A DNA stretch of 9,607 nucleotides from Prevotella sp. (GTDB lineage: Bacteria; Bacteroidota; Bacteroidia; Bacteroidales; Bacteroidaceae). A program made the translations under genes and the position numbers. Each line of letters opens with the position of its first letter. Positions within the stretch are counted from its first letter, which is position 1. Where the stretch lies: positions 1 to 9,607 of the forward strand of contig JAGAPI010000258.1 in NCBI GenBank assembly GCA_017623335.1, written 5' to 3'. This document shows, one piece after another, positions 921 to 9,366 of this stretch. The notes beneath the pieces were generated by a model. The model saw only the letters and a list, made by a program, of their open reading frames with translations, was not told the origin of the DNA and ran no database searches.

Positions 921-3062
921 CTAACGATATCCGTACACAGGATTATCCGTGGTGATGAAGTCAGGACGCAGGATGCGTGCCATACGCAACTCCGGCTCAG
1001 TGTCGAGCGTCCACATATTCACATGCAGACCAAGGCTGTGGGCCTCGTCTATCCACTCCGGATGCCTGAGGAAAATCTTCATTGAATAGTCAAGACATTT
1101 ATATCCGCGCGATTTGGCTTCCTCCGGCGACAGCTTGCCGCCAACGTAAGCCACATACACCGTACTGTCATTATGCAGCACATTGTCGCACACATCTGCA
1201 CTAAACGATATATATTCCACCTGCCTCTGCATGCTGAGCGAGCTCACCGTCTCCACGGCTTTTGCTGCTATATAGGCATTGGCAGAGTCCGACGGCTGAT
1301 TCTTTATCTCAAGTATGATTTTCATGTCGGGAAACTTTCTCGCCTCTTCAAGATAACCGGCAAGAGTGGGTATTTTCTCGCCGTTGGCAAGACGCACGCC
1401 CGACAGCTGTGCGTATGTGCTTGAAGAAATAGGCAGACCGCCAATGTGGGGTTCGTGATTAACAATCAGCACACCGTCGGAAGTGGCGTGTATGTCAAGC
1501 TCGCAGCCATAGACTCCTGCCTTTCCCGCGGCACGGAGAGCGGCTATGGAGTTCTGCACTGCTCCCTTCGCCCTCCAATAGCCCCTATGGGCGATAATCT
1601 TAGGAACAAAATTATCGGCAACAGTCCGCATGTATGCCCTGTCGGCGGCAACGCTCTGCCTGAAAGTCTCACCGAAACGGTTTTTCACCACCACGGTAAT
1701 CTCCTTAGTGCCGGGCGCCGGCGTAGCCTTGAAAAGATGACTTGTAAGGCAAGTCTTGCCGCGCTTGCCCAACAACTGTAGATAAGCCTCGTCATTGTCG
1801 GTGAAACGCTCCATGCGTCCGCGGCAGACACCGTCCTCATACCACTCCACAACCGTCTCCGTGTCGCAGTCCCACACATTTGCCACCACATCGAACGGAT
1901 GCGAGAGAAACTCTCCCACAGAATAGAGGCTCATCTGCCGCGAGACATCATCACCCGTTGGCTTATACTGCCACGACAGCGAATCTGCCGATGCCGTCAC
2001 TATCATATATCCATTGGGGGCTCCGCAGCGGTTCACATCACCGCGCCACCATGTTCCGCATGCCGCGCCGATGTTATGCTCATAGAGAGAATCCGAGACG
2101 ATATTGTTCTGTAAAAAATGCGTATGTCCGGCAAACACATGCACGCGATAGCCTTTCAACACCTCAGCCAGCTGCTCCGCATTGAGCACATTGCCTCCTG
2201 CCTCAACAACGTTCCATGCCGCAGCGTGCATGTTGAGAATCACCATCGAGCCTTTGGGCACATAACTGAGGTCGCGCCGCAGCCACTCCAGCTGCGCCCC
2301 GGTAATCTGCTCACGGTAATCCTTGTTGCCCATATAATTGATGTTCTTCAATGTCACGACATGCACTCCGGCAATGTTGAACGAATAGTCAACAGGTCCG
2401 AAATGGCGATGATATTCCATCTCTCCATACACCGGCGTTCCCAGCGGCATGTTGTTGAGAGCCTGATAGCGCTTGTCGAAATCATGGTTGCCTATGCACT
2501 GGAAAGCCGTGACAGGCAGAGAGTTCACCGACTGCTTATAACCGTCGAACAGCTTCATGTTGTCCCACACAATATCTCCAAGAGCCATAGTCACCACCTC
2601 GTGCTCGCCCGACAGACATTCCGCGGTATTCCTCAAGTCAGGAATGGTCTGCTTATTCCACTTTGCCAGCTGTTCCCGGTTTTTCACCTGCGGGTCGGAG
2701 ATGGCAATGAAATAGAACTTATCATCCTTCTTCTCACGCCTCTGCAGCACAAAGTCGTGCTTGCCCCTGTTGTCGGCAAGGGTACGCACACCGACATAGA
2801 AGTCGGCAATTGCCCCACGCCTGGGCAGACAATATCCGGAAGGAGTTGAGATATACACAAACTTACACGTGTTGGTGTCGGTAGGCAGCATCCACGCTCC
2901 CTTGTCATCGGTCACGGTGAACTCTGAACCGTTTGTCACCACAACCTTTGCCACACCATTCCCCTTTCCGTCGACCACGCGGCCACTGAAGTCAAACTGC
3001 CTTGCAAACGACACGCCTGCGGCAAGCATGCACAAAGCCAGACATGATAATCTATATTCCAT
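921..3062 (-). CDS. Secreted calcineurin-like phosphoesterase fused to glycerophosphodiester phosphodiesterase
   Basis: This 713-residue exported protein appears to combine two phosphoester hydrolases. Residues 1-20 are a signal peptide ending SFA. Residues 22-105 form a beta-rich, carboxypeptidase-regulatory-like N-domain, as is usual before such phosphoesterases. Residues 116-320 carry the dimetal calcineurin motifs: D123-P-Q125, GDIVWDN (162-168), GNHD (191-194), H279 and GHTH (312-315). Residues 330-475 look like the accessory C-domain of this phosphoesterase family. Residues 488-713 are a GDPD domain with HRG (492-494), ExD (E521, D523), H536 and LEIK (E585), so its metal and acid-base residues appear intact. 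QNS at 503-505 replaces the common ENT. GDPDs split glycerophosphodiesters into glycerol 3-phosphate and an alcohol; the calcineurin part could then release phosphate or cut another ester. Its ATG lies one base after the stop of the upstream gene. The gene ends with TAG, so amber is a working stop here. Confidence 0.9.
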   Translation of the reverse strand: MEYRLSCLALCMLAAGVSFARQFDFSGRVVDGKGNGVAKVVVTNGSEFTVTDDKGAWMLPTDTNTCKFVYISTPSGYCLPRRGAIADFYVGVRTLADNRGKHDFVLQRREKKDDKFYFIAISDPQVKNREQLAKWNKQTIPDLRNTAECLSGEHEVVTMALGDIVWDNMKLFDGYKQSVNSLPVTAFQCIGNHDFDKRYQALNNMPLGTPVYGEMEYHRHFGPVDYSFNIAGVHVVTLKNINYMGNKDYREQITGAQLEWLRRDLSYVPKGSMVILNMHAAAWNVVEAGGNVLNAEQLAEVLKGYRVHVFAGHTHFLQNNIVSDSLYEHNIGAACGTWWRGDVNRCGAPNGYMIVTASADSLSWQYKPTGDDVSRQMSLYSVGEFLSHPFDVVANVWDCDTETVVEWYEDGVCRGRMERFTDNDEAYLQLLGKRGKTCLTSHLFKATPAPGTKEITVVVKNRFGETFRQSVAADRAYMRTVADNFVPKIIAHRGYWRAKGAVQNSIAALRAAGKAGVYGCELDIHATSDGVLIVNHEPHIGGLPISSSTYAQLSGVRLANGEKIPTLAGYLEEARKFPDMKIILEIKNQPSDSANAYIAAKAVETVSSLSMQRQVEYISFSADVCDNVLHNDSTVYVAYVGGKLSPEEAKSRGYKCLDYSMKIFLRHPEWIDEAHSLGLHVNMWTLDTEPELRMARILRPDFITTDNPVYGYR

Positions 3063-3063
3063 A

Positions 3064-3555
3064 TTACAATTTCTTTAGTTCTACATTTTCAAAAAGTTCC
3101 ACAACATCCTTGCCAGCCTTAGCCTTGCGTGCTGCCGTTTCAAAATCGGCGGTGTTCTCCTCAAAGCATATCACATTGGCACAGTCGAGAATATGCGCCA
3201 TCACAGCCACGGCGTCGCCGCTTGCCATTCCGCCATCCCTAACGGCATGGCGTATATATCTGTCAGCACGTTCCACAGCCTTGAACACCGCAGGTTTGCG
3301 AATCTCCGTTGCCGAGCCCGAAAAGCCCACCTCCACGTCATACACACAGGTATAGTTGGCAATAAAGGTGTTCCACTTCTCAGTGATGACACTGCCGAGG
3401 GGATGCTGCTCCTCAAAGGTGTTTTTCACCGTTGGTATATTTCCATAAACCTCATAACTGTAACGGCACGACTTGACAACTGCCGTATTCTCGTCTTTGG
3501 CATACACGCCCGCAGAAAGCGCCATTGCCAGCAAAACAATAATTGTCTTTTTCAT
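3064..3555 (-). CDS. Secreted protein of unknown function in a SusCD/phosphoesterase operon
   Basis: I do not recognise this family. The 163-residue product begins with a clear signal peptide (MKKTIIVLLAMALSAGVYA, cleavage after residue 19). The mature part is mixed alpha/beta, with four cysteines (C30, C70, C125, C130) that could form disulfides outside the cytoplasm. There is a helical, charged stretch at residues 86-107 and a Lys/Glu-rich C-terminus. No lipobox cysteine follows the signal, so it should be soluble in the periplasm or exported. The gene starts 22 nt after the SusD stop, with an AAAAGGAAAAGAAG purine run before the ATG. It ends one base before the ATG of the phosphoesterase/GDPD gene, so it is firmly part of the operon. 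A role alongside the SusD protein or the hydrolase is inferred from position only. Confidence 0.8.
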   Translation of the reverse strand: MKKTIIVLLAMALSAGVYAKDENTAVVKSCRYSYEVYGNIPTVKNTFEEQHPLGSVITEKWNTFIANYTCVYDVEVGFSGSATEIRKPAVFKAVERADRYIRHAVRDGGMASGDAVAVMAHILDCANVICFEENTADFETAARKAKAGKDVVELFENVELKKL

Positions 3556-3577: not shown

Positions 3578-5038
3578 TTATCTTTTTTGCCATATCAGCT
3601 TAGTGCTTATCTCATCGGCACCCATCGACTGTACCGCCTTCAGATAGTTCTCACGGTTCATGCGCTGCAGGATGGCAGGATACTTATACCTGTAGGGCAT
3701 GGCATCGCCTGAAGCCACGCCGGGACCTGTCGGCACATCGGGGTAGCCTGTGCGGTTGTACTCAAACCACTGCTGATAATCGATGAAGAACAGCGCATAG
3801 AACTTCTGCTCCATGATGCGCCTGAGCGTACCGTCGTATGCTGTGGCTGGATTGTCGAAATATCCCTCCGGCAGCTCCACTCCCCACTGCTGCATATTGG
3901 CAGCCACGGCATCCTCGTACAGCTTGCGGGCATCCTGACTGATGATTCCGCGCTGGGCAAGCTCGGCTTTTATGAAAAGCACCTCAGAATAAGTGATGAG
4001 GGCAATGTCCTGCGGAGCCGTGGCAAGAGTGGCGGCATTGGGAGCCGAGCCGTTAATCACCGGCATGTTGGCATATCCGCTCTGCAGTCCCACATAGTCC
4101 TTCACATCCTTTCCGTTGTCATCCTTATTGGTAGCCTTGAGGGCAAACACCGGCAGGCGCGGGTCGTTCCACTGCTTGAGGGGATTGATGAAGAACTCCG
4201 ACAGCTGCTTGTACGAGCTTAGGTCTGACGGGCGTGTCATAGGCGCCTCGTATGGAGCCACTCCGGAGATTTGCACCATCGCCGACTCTTCATTACTGTC
4301 AAACACAGGATATTCGTCAGGATTGTCCACCATCTTCCTCAGTTCCGCAGCGGCATTAAGCTCCGGCACATCAATAACTCTCAGCAGTGCCCTCATGCGG
4401 AGCGAGTTGGCAAACTTGCGCCACTTCGCAATACCGTCGGCATCGCTGCCGCTGATGCAGTAGAGCAGGTCGCCGCTGTCATTATATCTCAGTCCCTTAG
4501 ACGGAGCAAAACGGCGGTTGGCGGCATCGAGCGAGTCTATGACAGCACGATAGACATCCTGCTGCGTGTCGAACTTAGGATAGTACAGCTGCTGGTCGCC
4601 GCGACAAGCCTCCTGCATTGGAATATCGCCAAAGGCGGCCGTAAGAGTCTCGAACATCCAGCACTGAAGTGTCAGTCCTATAGCCTGATAGTTGGCATCG
4701 CCCACAGCCACACCGTTATCGTATATTGCCTTGGCGTTGGTAAGCCATTTGTAATACTGGGTCCATGCTCCGTCGCCAGCCGTGTCGGTGATTCTGTACC
4801 ATCCCACCCCGTTGGTTGAGTTGGTGGTGACAAGACACTGCATCAGCTGAAATGTATAGCTGTTGTAGCGCTGCCATGTATAGATTCCCATGTTGTAGAT
4901 CACTGGAGTCAGGAAACTGCCCGCATTTGCTCCGTCCATTCTCGTAGGGTCAGTATTTGTCTCATCCATCGACTCACACGACATCATACCACACAGTGTC
5001 ATCAACAGGACACTTATCGAATATAAAATCTTTTTCAT
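3578..5038 (-). CDS. SusD/RagB-like outer-membrane lipoprotein (SusD-like_2 type)
   Basis: This 486-residue lipoprotein should sit on the cell surface, forming the lid over the SusC-type channel and binding the substrate before import. A lipoprotein signal ends at MMSC, with C21 as the predicted lipidated residue, and the following ESMDE is acidic, as in surface-exported Bacteroidetes lipoproteins. The early sequence (TNTDPTRMDGANAG) and the long helical region with YTWQRYNSYTFQLMQ and MFETLTAAFGDIPM match the SusD-like_2 branch. The C-terminal part contains EVLFIKAELAQRG and FFIDYQQWFEYNRTGYP, also typical of the family. Length is normal. It lies 36 nt after the susC stop. The ligand cannot be read from sequence; the operon's phosphoesterases suggest an organophosphate rather than a glycan. 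The frame is intact although the cognate SusC is interrupted. Confidence 0.92.
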   Translation of the reverse strand: MKKILYSISVLLMTLCGMMSCESMDETNTDPTRMDGANAGSFLTPVIYNMGIYTWQRYNSYTFQLMQCLVTTNSTNGVGWYRITDTAGDGAWTQYYKWLTNAKAIYDNGVAVGDANYQAIGLTLQCWMFETLTAAFGDIPMQEACRGDQQLYYPKFDTQQDVYRAVIDSLDAANRRFAPSKGLRYNDSGDLLYCISGSDADGIAKWRKFANSLRMRALLRVIDVPELNAAAELRKMVDNPDEYPVFDSNEESAMVQISGVAPYEAPMTRPSDLSSYKQLSEFFINPLKQWNDPRLPVFALKATNKDDNGKDVKDYVGLQSGYANMPVINGSAPNAATLATAPQDIALITYSEVLFIKAELAQRGIISQDARKLYEDAVAANMQQWGVELPEGYFDNPATAYDGTLRRIMEQKFYALFFIDYQQWFEYNRTGYPDVPTGPGVASGDAMPYRYKYPAILQRMNRENYLKAVQSMGADEISTKLIWQKR

Positions 5039-5074: not shown

Positions 5075-6277
5075 TCAGAAACCAACCTTAACGTTGACGC
5101 CGAACGAACGTGTAGTAGGCAACGTACCTACCTCAACGCCGCTTACAAACGAGCTTCCGTCGAGCGATGCTGTCTCGGGGTCGAACATCGGATAACCGGT
5201 GATGCACAACAGGTTGCGTCCGTACACTCCCACCACAGCCGAATCCAGGAACGTGTTCTTCAGCCACTTCTTTGGCAGGGTGTAGTCGAGCCTCATCTCA
5301 CGCAACTTCAGATAGCTGTTCTTAAACGAGTTGGTCTCAACGTTGCCGATGCGGTAATATTCCTTGTAATACGCCTCCAGGGTTACAATCTTGGTGTTGG
5401 GAGAATAAGTTCCGTCGCCGTTGTCAACCACGCCTGGCGCAATACAGTACACGCCTTCAACGGGAGTGATTTTCTGCTGTTCAAACAATGCCAGCACCTC
5501 AGGGTCTGTAATGTCAAGATAAAGTTCTGTGCCAGGCTTACGTCCGTTGAGCGTCTCTGCAATGTGTCCCTGCTCACACATCTTGTGATGCGACTGCGAA
5601 TAGGTGATTCCTCCCACCTGTCCGTCCCACTGCATCGAAAGCTTCAGGTTCTTGTATCTCAGCGACGTGCTGAAAGCTCCCTTCCATTTGGGCAGGGCAC
5701 AGCCCACATACTCTATTTCCGACGGACGGTCGGGCAGTCCAGTAGAGGCTATTATCACCAGCCCCTCGTCGTTGCGCTTAAGCTTATATCCCCAGATGTC
5801 GCCGGTCGTTCCTCCCACAGTACCTATTATATATACGTTGCCGCTCACATATGAGCCTATCACCTGACGCTCATCCGCATTGTCGGCAAGCGACTCTATC
5901 CTGTTGCGGTTGAGCGACCACGACAAGGTGTTGTTCCACTCCCACGAGCGTGTCTTTACAGGCGTTCCCCTGAGCACAAGCTCCAAACCCTGATTTCTCA
6001 CGCATCCTGAATTTATGATGCCTTTGGTATATCCTGTCGTCGGGTCGAAGGGAGCACTGAGAATCTGGTTTTTAGTGCGGTTGTAGTAATAGGTGAAGTC
6101 GATTCCCAGGCGTCCCTTGAAGAAGCGGACGTCGAATCCTCCCTCCCAACTCGTTGACATCTCAGGTTTAAAGTCGGCGTTATACAGCGTGCCGCTCTTC
6201 ACGAGCGAGCCTGCAAAGTCGCTTGTTGAATAATAAGGTGCGGTTTTGTAAGGGTCGGTGTCGTTGCCCACTTGCGC
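5075..6277 (-). CDS. SusC C-terminal barrel remnant after the amber codon
   Basis: This 400-residue continuation, beginning AQVGNDTDPYKTAPYY, is the second half of the SusC barrel. It keeps family landmarks such as SWEGGFDVRFFKGRLGIDFT, VYGRNLLCITGYP and the terminal aromatic F that helps outer-membrane assembly. It has no signal peptide. A GTG at 6271 is available but has no ribosome-binding context, so independent translation is unlikely; it matters only if the amber codon is read through or reverts. Confidence 0.7.
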   Translation of the reverse strand, partial: AQVGNDTDPYKTAPYYSTSDFAGSLVKSGTLYNADFKPEMSTSWEGGFDVRFFKGRLGIDFTYYYNRTKNQILSAPFDPTTGYTKGIINSGCVRNQGLELVLRGTPVKTRSWEWNNTLSWSLNRNRIESLADNADERQVIGSYVSGNVYIIGTVGGTTGDIWGYKLKRNDEGLVIIASTGLPDRPSEIEYVGCALPKWKGAFSTSLRYKNLKLSMQWDGQVGGITYSQSHHKMCEQGHIAETLNGRKPGTELYLDITDPEVLALFEQQKITPVEGVYCIAPGVVDNGDGTYSPNTKIVTLEAYYKEYYRIGNVETNSFKNSYLKLREMRLDYTLPKKWLKNTFLDSAVVGVYGRNLLCITGYPMFDPETASLDGSSFVSGVEVGTLPTTRSFGVNVKVGF

Positions 6278-8347
6278 CTACGATGCGCGCAGTTTCATAT
6301 AAGAAATCCAGTCCGGCAGCTTTACCACCTCGTTCATCATCACGCTCAGGCTCACCGAAGGATAGAAAAACGAGCGGTTCTTCCTTGGCAGCGTCGACGA
6401 CCAGTCGTTTCGCCCGCTGATATCGAGAAACAGCATGTTGCGGTATGCAAGGTTGGCGGTGAAGTACAGGCTGTTGACACGCTTCTTGTTGATGACCGTC
6501 TTTACGAGCGGCGAGCTGATGCCGTTGGCGAGCTTATACACTCCCGGAGTGTTCAGACCAGTGACCGAAGCCGAGAGCATGTCGTAGTAAGACACCATCA
6601 TGTTGCCGCCCGCCGAGGCGTTCAGGTGCAGTCCGTTGGAATAGCTGTTATGGTAAGACAGCAGCACATCGCTGTTAGCCTCATAGTCAAGCACATTCTG
6701 CTTTTTGAAGAATCCGTCGGGAAACACCTTGTCGTCCCACGGACGGTGCTGCTCCTGCGTCTGTGCCGTGAACTGTATTCCCGAGCGCACCATCAGGTCA
6801 AGGTTGCGTGTCACCTGATATGTGGCACTGGCGTTACCCATAAACGTGTGTTTCCTTGCAGGATTCTCCGCCTCGTAAAGCAACACGTAGGGATTGGGCA
6901 GATAGCTTGAGAAAGGACGTATCTGACTGACGTTCTCCTGTCCCTTATACCACATCGGCCTGAACCAGTTAAGGTCGAAGTTAGGATTCATGAAAATCAG
7001 GAAATACGAAATGGAGTTTGAGTTATATGTCAGCGACGGAGTGTTTTCCACATCACGGTATGTGTACGATGCGCGTCCGCTCACCTTAAGCCTCTTCGAC
7101 ACCTGCCGGTTGGCTGCCATCGACAGCGTGAGCCGGTCGTAGCCTGAGTTTGGCAATATCCACTCATTCTTGCTGTAGGTAAGCGCAAGGCGCATGTCGC
7201 CGCGGTCGCCAGTGCCGCTGATGGCAAGCGAATGGGTTGAGGTGTGTCCCGTCTGAAACAGTCCCGAGTGATTGTCGGTGTACGGGCGCCACAGTGTGGC
7301 TTGCTCTCCGCGTCCCTCTGTCGCCGGGTCGTACTGAAAGAACATCTGTCCGTCGAATTTCGGTCCGAAGGCGGAGCTTGTTCCCGATGTGCTCGCCAGC
7401 CCGTCGTCGCCTTTGCCGAATGAGTAGTACTGCTGTCCTTCCCAAGGAGTGTTCTTGCCGCCTATGTTCTTCGCCACGCCCTGACCGAACTCATACTGAT
7501 AATCAGGGAAATGTGCAGCCCCGTCCCATGTCTGGTTAAAGCTGTAGGTGACGCCTATTCCTTTCTTTCCGCCACGCCCTGTCTTGGTTGTCACCATGAT
7601 AACGCCGTTGGCTGCCCTCGAACCGTACAATGCCGATGCCGACGCTCCTTTCAGCACCTGAATGCTCTCTATGTCGTCGGGATTAAGGTCGGAAAATCCG
7701 TTACCGTAGTCCACAGAGCCTTCCGAATTGCCGCCTGCCCCGTATGAGCCGCCGGGATTGTTCATAGGGCTCGACAACGGCACTCCGTCAACAACCACAA
7801 GCGCCCCGTTGCCGTCCATGTTCATCGACACATCGCCGCGAAGGCTTATCTTCGTAGATGACAGCGGACCGCCAGCCGTGGTAACGTTCAAGCCAGCCAC
7901 CTCACCCTGAAGCGCCAGCGACCAGTTGCTTGGCATACTTGCCGTTATGTCGTCGCCGCTCACCGTCTGCGTGGAAAAGCCGAGTCCCTTCTCACTTCTT
8001 TTGATGCCAAGCGCGGTCACCACCACATTGTCCAGCTCCACGGCGTCGTCCTCCATCTCCACATTCAACTCGCCGCCGCTGTAGGACACGCGCTTCTTCT
8101 TAAATCCAACATAGCTGAACACGAGCCTGTCCTGCTTACCGAGCGTGCGTTCTGTCACAAACTGAAACTTACCGTCCACATCAGTAATGCCCAGCGTCTT
8201 CTGCTGACTGTTAAGCGACACCGTCGCCCCGATTACAGGTTCTCCCTTACTGTCCGTGACGCGCCCTTTGACGGTTGTCTGTGCCGTCACTGCCGTCGTT
8301 GCCGCCAACAGTAGCATCGCCGATGCAATTCTTTTAATTGTCTTCAT
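6278..8347 (-). CDS. SusC N-terminal open frame: signal, CTD-like domain, plug, half barrel
   Basis: This is the 689-residue part translated before the amber codon. It includes the signal peptide, the N-terminal regulatory-like domain, a short TonB-box-like stretch around [10 protein letters not shown] (108-117), the complete plug and roughly the first half of the barrel. A truncated barrel would probably be degraded in the periplasm. The ATG at 8347 lies about 35 nt downstream of a TAnnTTTG promoter element, consistent with a short AT-rich leader. Confidence 0.75.
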
Positions 8348-8368: not shown

Positions 8369-8396
8369 AAAAAATCTGCCGCAAAAGTACGGCAGA
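8369..8396 (-). terminator. Intrinsic terminator between the phosphatase remnant and susC
   Basis: On the minus strand a perfect 7-bp stem (TCTGCCG paired with CGGCAGA, plus-strand positions 8375-8381 and 8390-8396) encloses an 8-nt loop and is followed directly by six Ts (8374-8369). This is a compact classical intrinsic terminator for leftward transcripts from the phosphatase gene. Its loop is also the susC -7 element, so stopping of upstream transcription and susC initiation use the same bases. Confidence 0.65.
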
Positions 8397-8404
8397 CTTG
8401 TTAC
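8382..8404 (-). promoter_or_regulatory. susC operon promoter with PhoB/PhoP-like hexamer
   Basis: TACTTTTG (minus strand, 8389-8382) fits the Bacteroidetes -7 consensus TAnnTTTG exactly. No TTTG is seen in the usual -33 region. Instead GTAACA (8404-8399) ends 9 nt upstream of the -7 element. Transcription should start near 8375, giving a leader of about 28 nt before the ATG. A missing -33 element with an activator-like hexamer close to -7 suggests activator-dependent expression. Confidence 0.6.
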
Positions 8405-8436
8405 ATATTCCTTTCAGATATATTGCATTTCCACTA

Positions 8437-8469
8437 TGTCACACTATTGTAAAAGCTTTGTCACACTAT
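8437..8469 (-). promoter_or_regulatory. Upstream operator array: three hexamers at 11-bp steps
   Basis: On the minus strand the array reads GTGACA-N5-TTTACA-N5-GTGACA (plus-strand positions 8459-8464, 8448-8453, 8437-8442). The outer two sit in a perfect 11-bp direct repeat, TGTCACACTAT on the plus strand at 8437-8447 and 8459-8469, exactly two helical turns apart. The array lies about 48 bp upstream of the susC -7 element and touches the end of the phosphatase remnant. The 6+5 direct-repeat layout is that of PhoB/PhoP-family response-regulator boxes. Confidence 0.5.
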
Positions 8470-9145
8470 CGTGTCACCAGCACCCGTCCGACACTGCCGT
8501 TGGGCTGCATCACCACCATCAGGTCGCCGCTGCGCTTACGGTTATACCCCATCACTATGCGGTCGAGAACAGCAGGCGGCAGCGTTTCTTTTTTCACACT
8601 GCTGTAATCAATACAAGCCATCACACACGGGTCACTCTCAAGACGCTCCCTCAACGCCACCTTCACCTTGTCGAAGCTAAGCCCGGCTTCCTCCACCGCC
8701 ACACGGTCTATATAAAAGCGGTATTCAATGAGCGCCTTCACCAGTTCACGCTCCGTTCCATTCCCCCAGCCCTGGTGTCTGTCCCTACGGTTCTGACCTC
8801 ATGGTCATCGGTGCAGTAGCATTTCCTGCCGTCCACAAAAAAGTTGTTGCCGGCAATACCGTGTATGGCTGGAGTAGTGCCGGTATATACGCTTGCGTGA
8901 CCAACCGCAGTCACCGTAGGCACATAGCACAGATAAGCGTTGTCATAGCCATACCCCTCTTCCATCAGGCGACGGAATCCACCCTCGCCCCAACGGCCGA
9001 CATAACGTTCGAGATAGTCCCATCTCATCTGGTCAACCACAATTCCCACCACCAGCTTTGGCATTCTGCCTTCTGCCTGTACACACTCTGCCGCCATGCT
9101 CATCATGGCAAACAGCATAACAAAAATCATTCTAACATTTTTCAT
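8466..9145 (-). pseudogene. PafA-type alkaline phosphatase, two deletions
   Basis: The intact family members are exported Zn-dependent phosphate monoesterases of about 540 residues. The N-terminal fragment (9145-8738) has a signal peptide and then LVVGIVVDQM with D38, YVPTVTAVGHA with the Thr nucleophile T79, and IHGIAGN with N100. Counted from the ATG at 9145, these residues fall on the numbers I recall for characterised PafA, which supports that start over the ATG at 9157. After about residue 128 homology stops. A second fragment, in another frame from about 8759 to 8466, resembles a later region (ERELVKALIEYRFYID to GYNRKRSGDLMVVMQP). It then ends at TAG without the usual C-terminal block containing the last metal-binding His. 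So the middle (about 250 residues, with several metal ligands) and the C-terminus (roughly 75 residues) are gone. The enzyme cannot be active. Confidence 0.82.
8738..9145 (-). CDS. Phosphatase N-terminal fragment still open from its own promoter
   Basis: This 135-residue open frame keeps the phosphatase signal peptide and the nucleophile region, then runs into foreign-frame residues (ERSVNW) and stops at TGA. It could still be transcribed from the promoter at 9169-9213 and exported, but with only part of the active site it should not hydrolyse phosphate esters. Confidence 0.6.
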   Translation of the reverse strand: MKNVRMIFVMLFAMMSMAAECVQAEGRMPKLVVGIVVDQMRWDYLERYVGRWGEGGFRRLMEEGYGYDNAYLCYVPTVTAVGHASVYTGTTPAIHGIAGNNFFVDGRKCYCTDDHEVRTVGTDTRAGGMERSVNW

Positions 9146-9168
9146 TTCACGATACATTTTTTTGACTG

Positions 9169-9213
9169 CAAAATTACAGTCTCCATGCTACATCTGTGTT
9201 ACATCAATGTTAA
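9169..9213 (-). promoter_or_regulatory. Phosphatase promoter with Pho-box-like triple repeat
   Basis: On the minus strand TAATTTTG (9176-9169) is an exact TAnnTTTG -7 element. Upstream are three 11-bp units, TTTAACATTGA, TGTAACACAGA and TGTAGCATGGA, giving TTAACA-N5-GTAACA-N5-GTAGCA (plus-strand 9208-9213, 9197-9202, 9186-9191). The proximal hexamer ends 9 nt from the -7 element, the same spacing as at susC. No -33 TTTG is present. A further TTTACA lies at 9231-9236. The predicted start near 9162 is too close to the ATG at 9157, so translation probably begins at 9145. Confidence 0.6.
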
Positions 9214-9322
9214 AATAACAACAAGTTTTCTGTAAACAAAGTATTTTCGTACCTGAAATTTTATATAGTCCAACCCAAACACGGTTATTCCTTTAATAAT
9301 TAAGCAATTAGAAGTTTTCATA

Positions 9323-9366
9323 GTCCAACCCAAGCCCAACCCAAGTCCAACCCATGTCCAACCCAA
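9323..9366. repeat. Four tandem 11-bp repeats, unit GTCCAACCCAA
   Basis: The four consecutive units are GTCCAACCCAA, GCCCAACCCAA, GTCCAACCCAT and GTCCAACCCAA. A fifth copy lies apart at 9268-9278; with its flank it forms a 14-bp direct repeat (ATAGTCCAACCCAA at 9265-9278 and 9320-9333). The single copy is offset by 55 bp, five repeat units. The minus strand is G-rich, with alternating GGG and GG runs, and might form a G-quadruplex. Confidence 0.85.

Follow-up and report, generated by a model that had tools for sequence, protein, structure and literature searches.

Known Pho boxes and phosphate-linked SusCD systems

Pho boxes of the E. coli type consist of 11-nt direct repeats that are bound head-to-tail (PMC4415409), and in E. 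coli the Pho box precedes the -10 element by about 10 bp (PMC1906773). The cyanobacterial SphR Pho box, CTTAACCT, is present in at least three tandem repeats with a 3-bp linker (PMC1906773). The action of PhoB is already known in Bacteroides; in B. fragilis, which belongs to the same order as the organism considered here, PhoB (BF1576) binds the pst promoter, and among the genes that depend on it are those for a porin O, for alkaline and acid phosphatases, and for a phosphate/sulphate permease, besides pst and ppk (PMC3547664). At low phosphate, a Na+-dependent phosphate transporter of this bacterium is lowered 101-fold and a second porin O about 3-fold (PMC3547664). No box sequence was found in the accessible text of PMC3547664, where 'pho box' occurs once and 'consensus' and 'binding site' are absent, and none for any member of the Bacteroidota was found in the open-licence PMC literature searched. 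In Flavobacterium johnsoniae, the SusCD-like pairs named PusCD lie beside phosphatase/phosphodiesterase genes and are induced by phosphate depletion (PMC8115612).

Here, a stretch of 9607 bases (the window), whose closest relatives are Prevotella MAGs, is compared with these systems. What is newly proposed from the DNA alone is a putative Pho box of Bacteroidota form that would be tied to a SusCD system. Like the E. coli PhoB Pho box (CTGTCAT repeats) as given in the accessible texts, the candidate box has 11-nt direct repeats at a comparable distance to the core promoter element, but its hexamer is GTAACA rather than CTGTCA, the repeats are usually three, and the core is TAnnTTTG instead of a sigma-70 -10. 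The SphR box, as far as its accessible description goes, shares the three repeats, the 11-bp period, and the TTAAC core; it differs in phylum and gene set, and the box described here stands at a constant N9 from the -7 element of Bacteroidota. The PhoP boxes of Bacillus subtilis are direct repeats of the TT[A/T]ACA type and are nearly equal in hexamer and spacing, whereas promoter context and phylum differ. As in PusCD, the SusCD-like pair of the window adjoins phosphomono- and phosphodiesterase genes. In contrast, PusD1 and PusD2 are listed as PF07980/PF14322 in the accessible source and the window SusD is PF12771/PF12741; likewise, the PUSI-III clusters are listed there with ECF sigma and/or FecR-like regulators, whereas a PhoB-type box is proposed for the window. 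Filing the window pair as a published PusCD was rejected on Pfam type, and it may still work like a PUS.

Two promoters of the window

On the minus strand, GTAACA (8404-8399) and GTAGCA (9191-9186) are both separated by exactly 9 nt from a following TAnnTTTG; these hexamers lie exactly where the first-pass annotation had located them, and its claim that a -33 TTTG is absent is borne out, as no TTTG or TTG is present within ~30 nt upstream of either TAnnTTTG. Both promoters show a box just upstream of the -10/-7 element, at N9, with no -35/-33. The pattern KTARCA-N9-TAnnTTTG has two matches in the 9607 bases, compared to a mean of 0.01 and a maximum of 1 in 200 dinucleotide shuffles. At the phosphatase promoter, the three hexamers with 5-bp spacers that had been described as an 11-bp direct-repeat layout are seen (Table 1). 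The identical geometry claimed for the two promoters applies to the proximal hexamer only, since the susC site has degenerate letters (GCAATA and GAAAGG) in its two upstream repeats. At least two direct repeats with an 11-bp period are found at the pafA site and at an antisense site, whereas the window susC site has one intact repeat, three being readable in the relatives L001 and L002. About four copies of another 11-bp tandem repeat, reading about TGGGTTGGACT on the minus strand, occupy 9322-9366, ~110 bp upstream of the pafA box; their period is that of the Pho box, and their letters are unrelated to it.

Table 1. Coordinates of the features found in the window
Feature	Position	Strand	Basis or remark
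Candidate Pho box of the pafA promoter, TTAACA-N5-GTAACA-N5-GTAGCA, 11-bp period	9186..9213	-	Matrix rank 1 in window, 28.4
pafA -7 element TAATTTTG	9169..9176 (read 9176-9169)	-	9 nt after box
PafA-type phosphatase gene, 5' piece	8738..9157	-	PF01663; aligned to residues 1-129 of the 492-aa L002 protein
PafA-type gene, 3' piece, other frame	8466..8741	-	Aligns to residues 334-419 of the L002 protein
Antisense triple box GTCACA-N5-GTAAAA-N5-GTCACA	8438..8465	+	Top box-only score in window, 24.1
Candidate box of the susC promoter: GCAATA, GAAAGG (degenerate), GTAACA 8404-8399 (intact)	8399..8426	-	Matrix rank 2, 17.8
susC -7 element TACTTTTG	8382..8389 (read 8389-8382)	-	9 nt after GTAACA
Terminator-like hairpin and T-run	8369..8396	-	Loop and stem top contain TACTTTTG; fold of 8420-8340, z -4.2
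susC-like TonB-dependent transporter, N-terminal part	6278..8347	-	Stops at in-frame TAG 6280-6278
susC-like, C-terminal part, frame unchanged	5075..6271	-	ORF list, Pfam, translation
susD-like lipoprotein	3578..5038	-	PF12771, PF12741
163-aa protein	3064..3555	-	No Pfam match
Calcineurin-like phosphoesterase fused to GDPD	921..3062	-	PF16371, PF00149, PF16370, PF03009

A matrix of 45 positions was derived from 28 phosphate-gene promoters (21 pattern matches and 7 pst promoters), which include one phoB and one ppk promoter, contain no pafA or susC promoter, and leave out the window sites; because this training set is partly pattern-selected, the information at the pattern positions is inflated. 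The matrix consensus is GTAACATnTTTGTAACAnnTTTGTAACATnnnnnnnnTACTTTTG, and the consensus box is GTAACA-N5-GTAACA-N5-GTAACA-N9-TAnnTTTG. This agrees with the KTNACA-N5 repeats, N9, and TAnnTTTG put forward as a Pho box in the first-pass annotation, with the amendment that the repeats are usually three. Over ~19,000 window positions, 9213-9169 and 8426-8382 come first and second, and the next position scores 0.4. Since much of the matrix score is due to the -7 element, a separate comparison was made of the 37 positions that precede each TAnnTTTG. The 80 loci around SusD relatives (L001-L080) contain 1225 TAnnTTTG sites, with a median box score of -36; one of these equals or exceeds the pafA site and 12 equal or exceed the susC site, the background counts taking in susC promoters. 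Taken alone, the window susC site is only suggestive, and its case would rest on the relatives. Thresholds used with the matrix, such as 6 or 8, are our own choice.

The pafA promoter of L001 and L002 has the sequence TTAACC-N5-ATAACA-N5-GTAATA-N9-TACCTTTG; their susC promoter has GTAACA-N5-TTAAAG-N5-TTAACA (TTAATA in L002)-N9-TACCTTTG. Both boxes are thus kept with the same phase and distance, while the letters differ at free positions, and the susC box, degenerate in the window, is a readable triple in both relatives. This footprint rests on L001 and L002, as L003-L005 end short of the upstream region.

Two features between pafA and susC, an antisense triple box and a hairpin around TACTTTTG, were overlooked in the first-pass annotation. 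The box-only score of the antisense triple is unequalled in the 3.1 Mb of L001-L080. Its minus-strand reading (8464-8437) is GTGACA-N5-TTTACA-N5-GTGACA, and the plus-strand reading scores much better. A promoter of its own was rejected because no TAnnTTTG lies 9 nt downstream, and the triple is for that reason taken as an extra putative binding site; L001 and L002 have a weaker antisense box, GAAACA-N5-GTAACA-N5-GTATAA, at the matching place. The hairpin letters are nearly unchanged in these two relatives. With the susC -7 element inside the hairpin, a possible terminator of one gene is laid over the start site of the next. An RNA begun just after TACTTTTG would lack the left arm, so that the hairpin could end pafA transcripts and spare those of susC.

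Genes under the two promoters and the state of the locus

The genes that had been noted downstream, namely those for a phosphatase, a phosphoesterase, GDPD, and SusCD, are present, but the phosphatase gene is broken into pieces of 139 and 91 aa in two frames. No counterpart of residues 130-333 of the 492-aa PafA-type protein of L002 could be aligned anywhere in the window. PafA is the best NCBIfam match of the 5' piece, at 163 bits and below the cut-off, so that the window phosphatase falls short of a full-length PafA (NF042991, 554 positions, 650 bits); the intact L002 relative also has PafA as its best NCBIfam match and, at 607.6, is likewise below the 650 bits. Translation of the window shows susC to be interrupted by a single in-frame TAG at 6280-6278. 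The susC promoter is followed by the susC-like gene, the susD-like gene, the gene for the 163-aa protein, and the phosphoesterase-GDPD fusion, which in this window accompanies a SusCD family with a PF12771/PF12741 SusD. Elsewhere in the window, 26-729 on the plus strand holds a nucleotidyltransferase and HEPN-domain pair (PF01909/PF18765, PF05168), which we take to be an MNT-HEPN-like toxin-antitoxin arrangement.

These breaks raise the possibility, which we hold to be doubtful but worth weighing, that the locus is decayed, that is, that the boxes are real and the regulon works in relatives while the window promoters drive nothing useful. Such a state would be in line with the missing PafA residues 130-333 (L002 numbering) and shifted frame, with the TAG in susC, and with a window susC box more degenerate than those of L001 and L002. 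Yet the pafA box scores as high as that of intact relatives (28.4 vs 28.5), the SusD and phosphoesterase-GDPD reading frames are open, and both breaks could come from metagenome assembly error; either decay or such an error could be the cause of both the phosphatase break and the susC stop. A decayed locus is in any case compatible with the explanation of the repeats as Pho boxes.

Boxes in front of phosphate genes in relatives

An exact-spacing scan with TNACA-N6-TNACA-N9-TAnnTTTG was run on 399 genomes of the family of G002, a Prevotella relative. It gave 45 matches in 40 genomes, compared to 10 for a reversed-pattern control and 16, in 15 genomes, for a swapped-spacing control. A phosphate gene comes first downstream in 20 of the 45 true-spacing matches and in none of the 16 swapped ones (Fisher p 0.0006), or, when only matches with a called gene are counted, in 20/40 and 0/9 (p 0.007). 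For five matches (L208, L212, L217, L220, and L236), there is no 80-aa ORF within 350 nt, and these were counted as non-phosphate; in the swapped control, 9 of the 16 matches had a called ORF, and these were judged by eye without Pfam. The p-values are optimistic, because the genomes are related and the matches non-independent (for example L099 and L100, and also L209, L225, and L226, whose letters are identical).

The first genes after the matches are assigned by Pfam to PHO4 (nine), Porin_O_P (three), the Na/Pi cotransporter family (two), and polyphosphate kinase (one), and, by NCBIfam over the cut-off, to PstS, PstC, and PhoB (the Bacteroidetes PhoB model), one each. The 20 phosphate matches are made up of 18 with a family name and two pst-type porins (L205 and L230), which were counted because they are 54-60% identical to porins heading pst operons. 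The other 25 precede TonB receptors (L207 and L224), cation ATPases, aminotransferases, and others, or are the five with no called gene. A third hexamer 11 bp further up, outside the search pattern and scored as present when at least four of five scored positions agree, is found in 15/20 phosphate matches and 8/25 others (p 0.007). Lack of enrichment near phosphate genes had been named in the first-pass annotation as the outcome that would refute the box; the check, run here on the genomes of relatives, found the motif enriched before pst and other phosphate genes. Much of the PhoB-dependent gene set listed in the accessible text on B. fragilis is thereby recovered by motif alone.

Less strict searches were of limited use. 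A loose-gap scan of 10 relatives gave 15 matches, and the three with the exact gaps of the first-pass annotation precede porins in two Prevotella genomes and a Butyricimonas MAG, where porin-like and PstS-like genes follow, as judged by eye. The gene after the match at L087 is PF07396. A loose variable-gap scan of 201 genomes was set aside as too noisy in favour of the exact-spacing scan. KTNACA-N5-KTNACA alone caught few of the later sites in L001-L080, because the boxes vary (GTAATA, GTCACC, and TTAAAG), and the matrix was used instead. At L082 and L083 (G006 and G008), GTAACA/TTAACA repeats stand before phosphate transporter genes that are PiT-like by eye, the final TNACA being 11, not 9, nt from TAATTTTG. 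Several dispersed CAAATGTAACA...TGTTACAAATGT inverted elements in G135, G177, and G191 look like a motif-mimicking repeat family.

With the matrix, a match of at least 6 lies shortly before the first operon gene in 17 of 20 pst regions, or 10 of the 13 outside the training set; none was found there in L195, L197, and L202, the last on a contig with only ~160 nt upstream of pstS. The 20 regions came from 44 genomes whose pstC passed the cut-off; a rule used for pst promoters was fixed after the window had been seen. No pstC match was obtained in 63 of 121 family genomes. G002 is one such genome, and the boxes there belong to a porin, pafA, and susC, not to a Pst system.

A PhoB orthologue is present in all 10 genomes of relatives searched, including the Prevotella relatives G001-G004, with 59-68% identity to the L223 product. 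This query and the regulator just after the pst operon of L197 are both over the cut-off of the NCBI Bacteroidetes PhoB model and are 55% identical to each other. A box precedes the phoB orthologue at 6 of the 10 loci, none of them being the Prevotella loci L269-L272, and is absent from all 20 loci that gave weaker response-regulator matches. These loci bear on whether the 11-bp repeats could be the operator of another OmpR/PhoB-family regulator with targets partly overlapping phosphate genes, for example in cation or envelope stress, which we consider unlikely. As a group, OmpR-family regulators recognise direct repeats spaced by about one helical turn, and some scan matches do precede non-phosphate genes, such as two P-type ATPases (L211 and L213). 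Nevertheless, both ATPase matches are without the third hexamer, the targets include pst, PiT, Na/Pi, porin O/P, Ppk, and a PhoB gene, and the contrast between the 6/10 phoB-orthologue loci and the 0/20 weaker ones also argues against another regulator.

For pafA, which has a match in 111 of 121 genomes, 30 loci were examined. A clear box stands directly before the gene in seven (L125, which is L002's own locus, L132-L136, and L140) and a weak match of 6.8 in L143; 23 loci are without a clear box, and 22 without any match. The predominance of boxless loci fits the description of Flavobacterium PafA, in the accessible texts, as constitutive, yet contributing about half of inducible activity (PMC8115612, PMC8812569). 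Adjoining the boxed pafA of L133, on the opposite strand (minus, 3244), a weak box (6.2) lies before a gene that is GDPD-like by eye.

Upstream of susC, windows in the 80 loci around SusD relatives gave matches of at least 8 in 19/75, compared to 14 elsewhere in the 3.1 Mb, two of which are the pafA sites of L001 and L002; L008 also has a susC-upstream match, outside the count of 75. As these windows were fixed at 550 nt, they may miss promoters of longer susC genes, which the whole-locus scan covers. Boxed susC genes occur in Proteiniphilum, Bacteroides, Paraprevotella, Butyricimonas, Porphyromonas, Hymenobacter, Pontibacter, and a Sphingobacteriales MAG. No box precedes susC in ten loci (L064, L068-L071, and L073-L077) that we take to be from Flavobacteriaceae. 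On the minus strand of L022 and L026, matrix matches lie ~190-210 nt before a metallophosphoesterase-like gene (starting MNKLPPRRQLEVVVISDVHLG and MARKRKVEVVVISDVHLG, respectively), possibly, we presume, a PlcP-type lipid-remodelling enzyme.

The same pattern in 326 genomes across the phylum gave 59 matches in 45 genomes, with 13 for the reversed control. Besides the known G002 match, 29 of these loci were examined and 26 proteins scanned, which comprise PhoU_div (three), PstS-type (one), Porin_O_P (two), phytase-like (one), TonB-plug receptors (nine), and others (10). By eye, TTAACA is the more frequent hexamer phylum-wide.

Proposed mechanism

The sequence, the spacing, their conservation, the association with phosphate genes, and the PhoB orthologues in relatives are direct observations. 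In light of these, both elements of the window are very probably Pho-regulon operator-promoters, in which the repeats would form a Bacteroidota-form Pho box bound by PhoB and activating the downstream genes; the repeated tag is most likely the docking site of this phosphate-starvation regulator. In the operator, a hexamer of consensus GTAACA (KTNACA) would be repeated head-to-tail three times at an 11-bp period, and 9 nt would separate the final copy from the -7 element TAnnTTTG in a promoter without a -33 TTTG. We infer PhoB as the binder, its phosphorylation, activation rather than repression, and organophosphate import by SusCD: in its phosphorylated form, PhoB would occupy the repeats head-to-tail along one helix face and recruit RNA polymerase in place of the missing -33 contact, so that both the phosphatase gene and the susC-susD-phosphoesterase/GDPD genes would be switched on when phosphate is scarce. 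The SusCD pair would then import an organophosphate, perhaps a glycerophosphodiester, and the phosphoesterase-GDPD protein would cleave it.

Counting against this mechanism, boxes precede Na+-dependent phosphate transporter genes (L219 and L246), a type of which one member is lowered in B. fragilis at low phosphate. The 25 scan matches that precede other genes or no called gene, the boxless loci among pafA, pst, Prevotella phoB, and Flavobacteriaceae susC, the single intact hexamer of the window susC box, and the breaks in pafA and susC also count against it. As both this transporter and the second porin O are lowered there according to the accessible text, some boxes may repress. It is highly improbable that the boxes arose by chance or reflect a general property of promoters, with AT-rich words resembling TAACA in front of any TAnnTTTG. 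TAACA is frequent in AT-rich intergenic DNA, one hexamer alone is short, and there are 16 matches to the swapped pattern and 10 to the reversed one, but the two window matches against 0.01 expected, the median of -36 over 1225 TAnnTTTG sites, and the 20 phosphate genes behind 45 true-spacing matches disfavour this reading for the boxes as a class, the controls being weakest for the window susC site alone.

Implications for the phosphate regulon of Bacteroidota

On balance, we lean towards a phylum-wide Pho box (GTAACA-N5 three times, N9, TAnnTTTG) together with a PF12771/PF12741 SusCD family that would be under PhoB in Bacteroidales, Sphingobacteriales, and Cytophagales and would act as an importer of organophosphate, not glycan, in gut Bacteroidales. 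The box divides the copies of pafA, whose product is otherwise described as phosphate-insensitive, into those without a box and those with one, the latter being predicted to be inducible. If the distance to the -7 element is fixed in the matrix, the phosphate regulon would become readable from Bacteroidota genomes, and the matrix leads to the prediction that some SusCD systems, which are usually taken as glycan importers, are phosphate-hunger systems.
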